Both the position numbers and the translations under genes were made by a program. The notes under the pieces are model-generated. The model had not been told where the DNA came from and searched no databases. It saw nothing but the letters and a program-made list of their open reading frames with translations. Below, one piece after another: positions 48,579 through 51,429 of a stretch of DNA of 64,000 nt. How positions within the stretch are numbered: the stretch's first letter is position 1; every line of letters begins with the position of its first letter. Source of the DNA: Mediterraneibacter glycyrrhizinilyticus (GTDB lineage Bacteria > Bacillota > Clostridia > Lachnospirales > Lachnospiraceae). The DNA lies in NCBI RefSeq assembly GCF_015560805.1, contig NZ_JADMSO010000001.1:1-64000 (forward strand), written 5' to 3'.

Positions 48579-48690
48579 GATACCCTCCTTTTGTCTGTTC
48601 TGGTATTATTGTATTCGGACAGGTAGGGAAAAAGAACGGGAAAGCAGAAAGTGAAAAGAATAGAAGAAAATGCCGTGGAAGGAGAAAGCA

Positions 48691-49203
48691 ATGGATCAAA
48701 AAACAGAAGATTTGAAGTGTGCCGATCAGGAAGCGATCGATCAGAAATATATGCGGGAAGCGATCAAACAGGCGAAAAAGGCGTATACGCTGGAAGAGGT
48801 TCCGATCGGCTGTGTCATTGTATATGACGGGAAGATCATCGGACGGGGATATAATCGTCGGACGATCGACAAAAATCCTCTGGCACATGCGGAGATCCAG
48901 GCAATCCGGAAAGCGAGCCGAAAGATGGGCGACTGGCGGCTGGAAGACTGCACATTGTATGTAACATTGGAACCGTGTCAAATGTGTTCCGGCGCGATTG
49001 TGCAGGCGCGGATCAAGCGGGTGGTCGTCGGCTGTATGAATCCGAAAGCGGGATGCGCCGGTTCGATTTTAAATTTGTTGGATGTAAAAGAATTTAATCA
49101 TCAGGTGGAACTTACGACCGGAGTGCGGGAAGAGGAGTGCAGCCGGATGATGAAAGAGTTTTTCAGGGAGCTGAGAGAGAAGAGGAAGAATGGGGAGTTT
49201 TGA
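48691..49203 (+). CDS. tadA: tRNA adenosine deaminase
   Basis: A 170-residue TadA, which turns A34 of tRNA-Arg(ACG) into inosine. Catalytic zinc motif [11 protein letters not shown] and the PCQMCSGA Cys pair are intact. The N-terminus is about 20 residues longer than in most TadA proteins (acidic, [15 protein letters not shown]). GGAAGGAG lies 6 bases before the ATG at 48691; an ATG at 48670 has none. The stop is 2 bases before the restriction-modification gene, so they are probably co-transcribed. Confidence 0.95.
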
Positions 49204-49205
49204 GA

Positions 49206-51374
49206 ATGCAGTTAATCAGTTTGTTCAGCGGATGCGGAGGGCTCGATCTCGGTTTTGAGAGAGCCGGATTCGAGATTCCGGTTGCAAATGAGATCGATAA
49301 GAAAATATGGGCAACCTTTCGAGCGAATCATCCGAAGACACATTTGATCGAAGGGGACATTCGAAAAGTGAATAAAGAAGACCTCCAGGAATTTCTGAGC
49401 GGAGAAGTGGACGGGATCATCGGGGGACCGCCGTGTCAGTCATGGTCGGAGGCCGGCTCTCTCAAAGGAATCGAGGATGCAAGAGGACAGCTGTTTTTCG
49501 ACTATATCCGGATCCTGAAAGAATTTCAGCCGAAATTTTTTCTCGCGGAAAATGTAAGCGGGATGTTGGCAAACCGCCATTCGGAAGCCGTCCAGAATAT
49601 CTTCCGGCTGTTTGAGAGCGCGGGATATGACGTGACATTTACGATGGTAAATGCGAAAGACTACGGTGTGGCGGAAGAGCGGAAGCGTGTGTTCTATATT
49701 GGATTTCGACATGATCTCAATATCCGGTTTGGATTTCCGAAAGGATCAACGAAAGAGGATGAGAAAAAGCTGACGCTTCGGGATGTGATCTGGGATCTGC
49801 AGGAGAGTGCGGTTCCGGCGGGACCGAAGAACCACCACAATCCGGATGCGGTCAATAACAATGAATATTTTACCGGGGCGTATTCCCCGATCTTTATGAG
49901 TAGAAACCGGGTGAAATCATGGGATGAGCAGGCGTTTACCGTGCAGGCGTCCGGCAGACAGTGTCAGCTCCATCCGCAGGCGCCGAAAATGGAGAAACTC
50001 GGGAATAATGCGTGTCGGTTCGTCGAGGGAAAAGAACACCTTTACCGTCGCATGACGATCCGGGAAGTGGCGCGGGTGCAGGGATTTCCGGATGAATTCC
50101 AGTTCCTATATGAAGATACGAATACCGCGTATAAGATGATCGGCAACGCAGTTCCGGTGAATCTTGCATATGAAATTGCGGTGGCGATCCGGAAATATCT
50201 GGAGGGAAACGGAGAACATGTGGAGATCGACGCGGAGGCGATCGATGCAAAGGAAGTGACGAGCAAGAAGCTGAGTACACAAAAAAGGAGCGGAAAGAAA
50301 GCGACGAAAACCGCAATATTACAGAAAGTGTCGGCAAAGGATACGACGGTAAAGGACGCGGCAGATCGGGAAGCCGCGCCGGCAGTCCCCGGGGAGAAAA
50401 CGCAAGTTCAGACGATAAAAGGAAAAACAACGAGCAACGGACAGGGACGCGCCTACGAATATGCATGGATGCAGGCATTATACGGCAAACTGCGGAAAGT
50501 CAGAAAGACCCGGATGACCGGCAATTCCAGTCTTGCGGTGAACAAAAAAGCGTGGTCGGAGATGGATGAAGCGATGCGGAAAAGTTTTCGGACTTCTGCG
50601 AATGCCGCGGTGGAAGCTGTTCTTGCGATGGAACCGAAACTTTCGGAAAACAGCGGAGACGAGCTGATCCTGGAGTTCCAGAAAGACGAGGCGGGCATGA
50701 AAGGCGATGTCCGGGATATTGTCGCGAAGCGCCCGAAGATCGGCTGGGAAGTCGGATTCAGCATCAAACATAATCACGATGCGGTGAAGCACAGCCGCCT
50801 CAGTTACAAGCTGGATTTCGGGGAAGAATGGTTTCAGATTCCTTGCAGCAGTCAATATTGGAATGTGGTGGATCCCATTTTCACGATGTTGAAAGAGGAA
50901 AAGAAAAATCAGGCAAAATGGTCTGAAATCGGAGACAAAGGTCTGAAAGTCTATCAGCCGCTTCTGCGTGCATTTATGGATGAAGTGGAACGGGCGTATG
51001 CGAAAGATGCGGACGTTCCGCGGAAGATGGTGGAGTATCTTGTGGGCGTAAAGGATTATTATAAGATCGTCAGTAAAGACAAGCAAAGGCTCACAGTTAT
51101 CCATACGTTCAATATGCACAAAACATTGAATCAGGAGACTCCGGACTGTGCCAAGGTTCAGGTGGTTCCGGAGGTGGAATGGCCGACAAAGATGCTCGGT
51201 CTTCAATTCCGGAATGGCAGCAAGAACACGCTGGAAATGCATTTGGATAAAGGGTGGAAGCTGAGTTTCCGGATCCACAATGCCAGATCCGCGGTGGAAC
51301 CGAGTCTGAAATTTGACGTACAGTTTCTCCAGATGCCGGAGTCGGTGCTGAATCTGGAATGTCGTTGGAAATGA
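49206..51374 (+). CDS. Fused M.HaeIII-like methyltransferase and HaeIII-like restriction endonuclease
   Basis: A 722-residue single-chain type II restriction-modification protein. Residues 1-335 are a C5-cytosine methyltransferase close to M.HaeIII: SAM motif FSGCGGLD, catalytic [12 protein letters not shown] (Cys77), ENV (115-117), [11 protein letters not shown], recognition region SRNRVKSWD and [14 protein letters not shown], and [13 protein letters not shown]. Residues 336-410 are a Lys/Thr/Ala linker. From about 411 ([19 protein letters not shown]) to 722 it resembles the HaeIII endonuclease family; GDVRDIV and SIKHNH are possible catalytic residues. Predicted target GGCC, based on likeness to M.HaeIII. 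Start ATG at 49206, 2 bases after tadA, with no separate promoter seen. Other long in-frame ATGs upstream lie in tadA. Confidence 0.92.
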
Positions 51375-51385
51375 AACCGTGTTAA

Positions 51386-51429
51386 AAAAAGCAGAAGACA
51401 TATCATTTTATGGTTGTCATCTGCTTTTT
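51386..51429. terminator. Terminator after the restriction-modification gene
   Basis: AAAAAGCAGA(A)GAC pairs with GTC(A)TCTGCTTTTT across a 15-base loop, ending in a T-run. It lies 12 bases after the stop and overlaps the -35 of the flavodoxin promoter. Confidence 0.85.

Follow-up and report, generated by a model that had tools for sequence, protein, structure and literature searches.

The closest described system is HaeIII, in which M.HaeIII and R.HaeIII, both specific for GGCC, are encoded by two head-to-tail genes (PMC3039593). Endonuclease and methyltransferase are combined in one protein in Type IIC and IIG enzymes such as MmeI, Eco57I, BpuSI and BtgZI, the last with its methyltransferase first; these carry gamma-class methyltransferases (alpha-class in BtgZI) and cut away from their site (PMC4081073). 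Among Type IIC systems, only 0.9% were put down as resembling two-gene systems (PMC4176335). A designed fusion, RM.Eco29kI, in which a palindromic-site endonuclease was joined head-to-tail with its own methyltransferase, was fully functional (PMC3039593). In a survey of site avoidance, the sites of orthodox systems were avoided in 850 of 1774 pairs, and those of Type IIC/G systems in 0 of 107, and also in 0 of 47 (PMC4687349).

The window, i.e., the 64,000 nucleotides of Mediterraneibacter glycyrrhizinilyticus DNA analysed here, contains a single frame (49206-51374, forward strand) that runs from an ATG for 722 amino acids with no stop inside; the ORF listing extends it to 49137-51374 (745 amino acids) if a GTG start is taken. 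The original prediction of an uninterrupted 722-residue frame was confirmed by the ORF listing, with Pfam and PADLOC agreeing on the domains, and its reading as a whole was supported, since both halves matched named families in the order methyltransferase (M), linker, endonuclease (R). The features are shown in Table 1. Both protein families are those of HaeIII, and the methyltransferase specificity loop is identical, but the window encodes one chain instead of two. It has the architecture of Type IIC enzymes, with both domains in one uninterrupted polypeptide, and the domain order of BtgZI; however, its methyltransferase is a C5-methyltransferase (PF00145) rather than the gamma-class amino-methyltransferase of Type IIG, its endonuclease is of the HaeIII family, and its expected site is avoided. 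Unlike RM.Eco29kI, which is man-made, has the order R-M and contains a different endonuclease, the fusion in the window is natural and ordered M-R. The parts are known and the arrangement is natural; no prior description of a natural HaeIII-type fusion was found in the open-licence PMC literature. Judged from its sequence, the gene probably specifies all of a Type II restriction-modification system on a single chain, derived by fusion, that would methylate and cut GGCC with independent recognition by its two halves. The single-chain GGCC system is genuine and probably active.

Table 1. Features of the fused restriction-modification gene and its surroundings in the window
Feature	Coordinates	Strand	Basis or remark
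tadA (tRNA adenosine deaminase)	48670..49203	+	directly upstream of fusion gene
M.HaeIII-type C5-cytosine methyltransferase domain, residues 1-335, predicted site GGCC	49206..50210	+	PF00145, phmmer
Linker core, 24 residues, common to fused clade A	50211..50282	+	alignment of fused relatives
Putative remnant of internal endonuclease start	50250..50273	+	AAGGAA 50250-50255; CTG 50271-50273, then AGT
Lys/Ala/Thr-rich linker extension, ~50 codons	50283..50435	+	absent from the other 21 distinct fused genes, in a sample including the best 80 of 443 relatives
HaeIII-family endonuclease domain, residues 411-722, plus stop; predicted HinP1I-like fold	50436..51374	+	PF09556, AF2
Inverted repeat AAAAAAGCAGA ... 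TCTGCTTTTT, likely terminator	51384..51429	+	by eye, T run

The methyltransferase half belongs to the M.HaeIII-type C5 enzymes by both its domain and its specificity loop. The DNA_methylase profile PF00145 covered residues 1-329 (E = 9.8e-101), PADLOC labelled residues 1-337 as MTase_II, and the closest match in the PDB was M.HaeIII itself (1dct; phmmer, E = 1.6e-131). The recognition-region loop attributed to M.HaeIII in the original prediction was identical in 1dct, and GGCC is therefore the expected recognition site. One further C5-methyltransferase match was found in the same genome (G000:C4:27451-28320); it was diverged (32% identity, spanning residues 68-195) and contained an internal TGA.

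For the C-terminal half, which had been likened to the HaeIII endonuclease, a profile search matched RE_HaeIII (PF09556) over its entire length (profile positions 1-298 of 298, residues 414-711, E = 1.3e-121), scoring 405.8 bits against a curated cut-off of 25. PADLOC labelled residues 409-721 as REase_II. A chance match was excluded by the Pfam E-values together with the existence of conserved fused relatives. Of the 92 columns in which 90% or more of 52 relatives agree, the window keeps 89, and the family blocks GDVRD and WExGxSxKHNH were retained. A phmmer search of this half against the PDB produced no solved relative (best E = 0.083). An AF2 model built on a 53-row alignment had a pLDDT of 94.1; its top Foldseek matches were to HinP1I, with E-values of only 0.011-0.015, while structural alignment by VIA-align 2 against HinP1I (2fkc/1ynm) gave Z = 9.2 and an rmsd of 4.4 over 208 of 312 residues, compared with 5.5 for the next unrelated row. 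The model therefore predicts a HinP1I-like PD-(D/E)XK fold over most of the domain. HinP1I is the best fold match but shares only 6% sequence identity, and is another enzyme with another site, GCGC.

The fusion ATG lies 2 nt past the tadA stop codon (49201-49203), with GGGGAG ahead of it, and both genes are therefore probably on one mRNA. The inverted repeat downstream of the fusion gene, a likely terminator, was not listed by a scan, its loop being longer than the scan permits. The position after tadA is local: among the other endonuclease loci fetched, many with 1.5-kb flanks, only L042 had a tadA-like neighbour (31% identity, opposite strand), and neither half was present in the 1.5-kb flanks of nine genus relatives with a close tadA (L121-L129). 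In these relatives the content after tadA differs, and the restriction-modification gene fills a variable spot there (window 48670-49206); in several of them the DNA after tadA resembles an SRP RNA gene. An Rfam scan of the window returned zero families at the gathering score.

The frequency of the family was estimated by counting carriers of PF09556 in evenly drawn genomes, with the window's genome included in each count. The family occurred in 14 of 392 genomes of the window's order, of which four were fused, all in the window's own family, Lachnospiraceae; in 8 of 397 genomes of that family (five fused); in 5 of 398 genomes of the phylum (one fused, the window's); and in 2 of 12 genomes of the genus (again one fused, the window's). 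A single-protein query of genome contigs found no relative, whereas an alignment query did. These carriers were classed together with the best 80 of 443 relatives in named genomes and with 11 viral contigs, a sample biased towards close relatives. The 118 endonuclease loci classed comprised 27 fused, 81 split in the order M>R, 6 split in the order R>M and 4 without a methyltransferase in the DNA covered. After removal of 5 copies of genes already counted, 5 further duplicates and 4 fragments, 104 distinct rows remained. Within this sample, which includes the best 80 of 443 relatives and favours close ones, 22 rows were fused, 74 split M>R, 6 split R>M and 2 without a methyltransferase in the flank covered. 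The two-gene layout, described beforehand as classic, was thus the commoner state; nevertheless, the window's arrangement is not unique, given 21 other distinct fused homologues of several origins. Phage records contained no match to the endonuclease half, and four plasmid records did, two of them annotated with adjacent separate genes. Two different fused genes occurred in one MAG, RUG13174 (L029 and L030, on contigs 52 and 4). A second, diverged C5-methyltransferase (29%) immediately followed the fused gene of L040 (6948-7865). The distant relative L011 (G375:C2) likewise has a fused gene, in which the methyltransferase part is diverged (40%) and the junction lacks a start codon.

Phylogenetic analysis indicated that fusion is recurrent. 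The fused label required at least 12 changes on the endonuclease tree, 7 of them forced by starred branches, and 11 on the methyltransferase tree, 7 of them forced; a single fused clade was rejected (p-AU = 9.5e-21, concatenated tree, 33 rows). In the concatenated tree the window fell into a group (support 89/75) together with one split and 11 fused genes; the inner set of 12 rows that includes the window had support of 98/97. Quick single-domain trees instead placed it nearer the split genes L047 and L051; in the endonuclease tree its 7-row set (support 96) also contained L035, L036, L043 and L024. The linker core IDAKEV, shared with clade A, favours the clade A placing. Were the window to lie outside clade A, this would add a further independent fusion.

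In split pairs the methyltransferase stop was mostly near or overlapping the endonuclease start. Two sister pairs, compared by eye, differ at the junction by a single-nucleotide indel that changes the frame: L005, which is fused, with L032, which is split (Brotaphodocola catenula; support 95/86), and likewise L042 with L048 (Roseburia sp.; 100/100). These split pairs have the same gene order as their fused relatives, but their methyltransferase stop overlaps the endonuclease start or first codons, resulting in two proteins. L032 is nested among fused genes and has the same junction length, so that it is more simply explained as a return to the split state. At its junction (~1600-1670), the methyltransferase frame contains A AAA AAG, preceded by GGAGG, ahead of a TGA overlapping the endonuclease GTG; A AAA AAG is a candidate for -1 frameshifting, through which the M-R fusion could also be made. 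The fusion in the window would have arisen in frame from a head-to-tail M-R gene pair with overlapping or nearly touching ends. The core linker would then represent the former methyltransferase tail plus the former endonuclease start, later lengthened by ~50 codons in the window's lineage.

The predicted 75-residue Lys/Thr/Ala linker was found as described, in frame, and contained no tandem repeats. In a full-chain model pLDDT fell below 50 at residues 349-407, and the long linker is therefore predicted to be disordered; values below 50 also occurred within the methyltransferase (81-86, 216-259 and 267-269), the alignment being a mixture of full and partial rows. Where the window has AAGGAA and CTG AGT, most clade A relatives have AAGGAG and ATG or GTG followed by AGT. 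With the start weakened to CTG, ~50 extra codons after it and, by eye, no other likely start ahead of the endonuclease domain, the window looks like a more committed fusion than its relatives.

The relatives raise the question of two proteins from one frame, i.e., the M-R chain and a free endonuclease initiated internally at the old start, in which case a separate translation rate would set restriction; we regard this as evenly balanced between true and false. Among the 22 distinct fused genes (from the sample that includes the best 80 of 443 relatives), the old start position was ATG in 9, GTG in 8, CTG in 2 (one being the window), TTG in 1 and another codon in 2. In a synonymous-constraint test where each gene pair serves as its own control, the start-codon column ranked first of 626 for 16 fused main-clade genes, with the window left out. 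Of the top 7 among 674 seven-codon windows, 6 spanned the start codon and one began at the next codon. For the 11 fused genes of clade A, the start codon ranked first of 609 columns for excess synonymous identity, and five-codon windows over it ranked 1-4 of 674; it still ranked first, of 615, when the window joined them. Valine at the old start was GTG in 7 of 7 cases, compared with 57 of 316 valine codons in the same genes, and among 25 all-valine columns the old-start column alone was codon-invariant. Anti-SD binding of the upstream 20 nt was matched by at most 5% of other in-frame xTG codons in 19 of 22 genes (including L042, which has ATA), the exceptions being the window (7%), L011 (15%) and L045 (77%). 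Additionally, L032, the split sister nested among fused genes, uses the same SD and GTG as its first possible start. These observations, above all the start codon being the strongest column for synonymous constraint in clade A, suggest that free endonuclease is still made in most fused relatives.

Other observations count against internal initiation. The window itself has CTG and AAGGAA, whose strength is matched by 7% of the 69 other xTG codons, and its linker extension comes after this point. The start codon is missing from L042 and L011, and the SD from L045. The SD of clade A genes is ~14 nt away from the start codon, a long spacing, and within a tight -15 to -4 region the median fraction in the anti-SD test was 0.18. 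Low mRNA structure at the internal start (median fraction 0.039, 20 genes) vanished once A content was matched, and was therefore not counted as evidence. Among the 5 fused main-clade genes outside clade A, which have Met at this column in 4 cases and Ile in 1, the column allowed no ranking; seven-codon windows over it ranked 4 of 652 at best. The constraint could also date partly from split ancestors. In favour of it, moving the upstream stop in the PvuII system, whose C and R genes overlap, left translation of R unaffected (PMC2997769), and a start of this kind could therefore function within an open frame. Among defence genes, Cas11b has been reported to be translated internally and in frame (PMC11899642). 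As for the need for a single chain to solve host protection, both activities appearing at once, relatives may escape it in part through their seemingly kept internal start.

The sampled host DNA carries the footprint of an orthodox Type II system. GGCC counts were compared with maximal-order Markov expectations, and avoidance was also scored as Kr, with Kr <= 0.78 as the cut-off. The window contained 21 GGCC against 136.2 expected; nine further contigs of this genome, sampled over 180 kb, had 34 against 372.6 (Kr = 0.18), making GGCC the most avoided of 16 4-bp palindromes. In genomes sampled at 18-180 kb each, rather than counted whole, Kr was at or below the cut-off in 7 of 7 fused carriers, 9 of 10 split carriers and 5 of 26 genomes without PF09556. 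All 7 fused-carrier genomes were sampled, while 11 of 18 known split-carrier genomes were sampled and 10 kept; G110, G016, G062 and G142 were left out because too little sequence was available or their expected count was low; of these, G142, a non-carrier, looked avoiding (8 against 41.3). The Markov ratios differed between fused carriers and non-carriers (Mann-Whitney, p = 1.5e-5) and between split carriers and non-carriers (p = 2.6e-5), but not between fused and split carriers (p = 0.47); the genomes are related and these p-values are therefore generous. This comparison replaced a smaller one of 7 fused carriers and 13 genomes without the family (p = 0.001). The sampled fused-carrier genomes thus avoid GGCC about as strongly as two-gene carriers. 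Avoidance was stronger for GGCC than for any other palindrome in 5 of the 7 genomes with fused genes and in 3 of the 26 that lack the family. Mild depletion was widespread. Three genomes without PF09556 (G649, G126 and G166) showed strong GGCC avoidance, possibly reflecting another or a lost GGCC system; the C5-methyltransferases of G649 and G126 have a different specificity loop and offer no obvious explanation. Avoidance may predate the gene or stem from another system, since lost. Of the 7 genomes with fused genes, the window's had the lowest GGCC ratio despite the weak internal start of its gene, which argues that the M-R chain itself restricts, and not only free endonuclease.

That low ratio also speaks against decay of the endonuclease half, which would leave the protein effectively a GGCC methyltransferase carrying a passenger domain. 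The terminal branch of the endonuclease half was 0.59, the second longest in a 31-row clade (L006 being longer, at 0.61), compared with 0.21 for the methyltransferase half, so that relaxed or altered function is possible, and fusion may disturb dimerisation. The open frame, the conserved columns, the intact GDVRD block and the confident model of this half point the other way, and we consider decay unlikely. An assembly or sequencing artefact, whereby an error of 1 nt joined two overlapping genes, is hardly credible. Such errors could create or break fusions of the kind separating L005 from L032 and L042 from L048, but the window's junction consists of 75 in-frame codons with no overlap, and 12 fused genes (the window's included) from 11 assemblies read through the IDAKE linker in the same frame. 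As for the frameshift at the linker named as grounds for refuting the original prediction, the assembled linker is in frame, and its core recurs in fused genes from other assemblies.

A different objection is that the halves share one recognition step, with AdoMet stimulating cutting, as in a Type IIG-like unit. A single chain is the hallmark of Type IIC/IIG enzymes (PMC4081073), yet the families that the two halves match are full-length, free-standing enzymes, the linker is predicted to be disordered, and GGCC is avoided here, whereas no Type IIC/G site was avoided in the surveyed pairs (PMC4687349). In site avoidance the fused systems behave like orthodox ones, and shared recognition is very unlikely. 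On the preferred reading of an independently recognising single chain, the M.HaeIII-type domain would methylate a cytosine of GGCC and the PD-(D/E)XK-like domain would cut unmethylated GGCC, each half keeping its own site recognition across a flexible, disordered linker. Methylation would need one chain, while a double-strand cut probably needs two endonuclease domains to meet, and the host would most likely be protected in the same way as by a two-gene system, by means of intrinsic rates and oligomerisation. The domains, frame, conserved residues, the fold predicted for the endonuclease half and the avoidance of GGCC in the sampled DNA were observed; the activities, the exact site, the independent recognition and the manner of protection are inferred.

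Across the family, an internal start kept by selection would let one mRNA provide both chain and free endonuclease, and single-nucleotide indels would move lineages between the split and fused states; the window would be a later step, a single-chain enzyme with its internal start largely lost and its linker stretched, yet with a footprint like that left by two independently acting enzymes. This scenario is offered tentatively, at slightly less than an even chance. The origin of combined R-M enzymes has so far been argued from design (PMC3039593) and from scarcity (PMC4176335); here is a natural family with repeated switching, in which split and fused sisters are one nucleotide apart. GGCC avoidance in these genomes departs from the absence of avoidance reported for Type IIC/G systems (PMC4687349), and opens to test whether two free enzymes are required for avoidance or whether two independent recognitions suffice. 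Provided that it is active, the protein would also be a single-gene GGCC methylase and nuclease. What gives the family general interest is that fusion recurs in it, that relatives conserve the internal start and that the fused systems leave an avoidance footprint.
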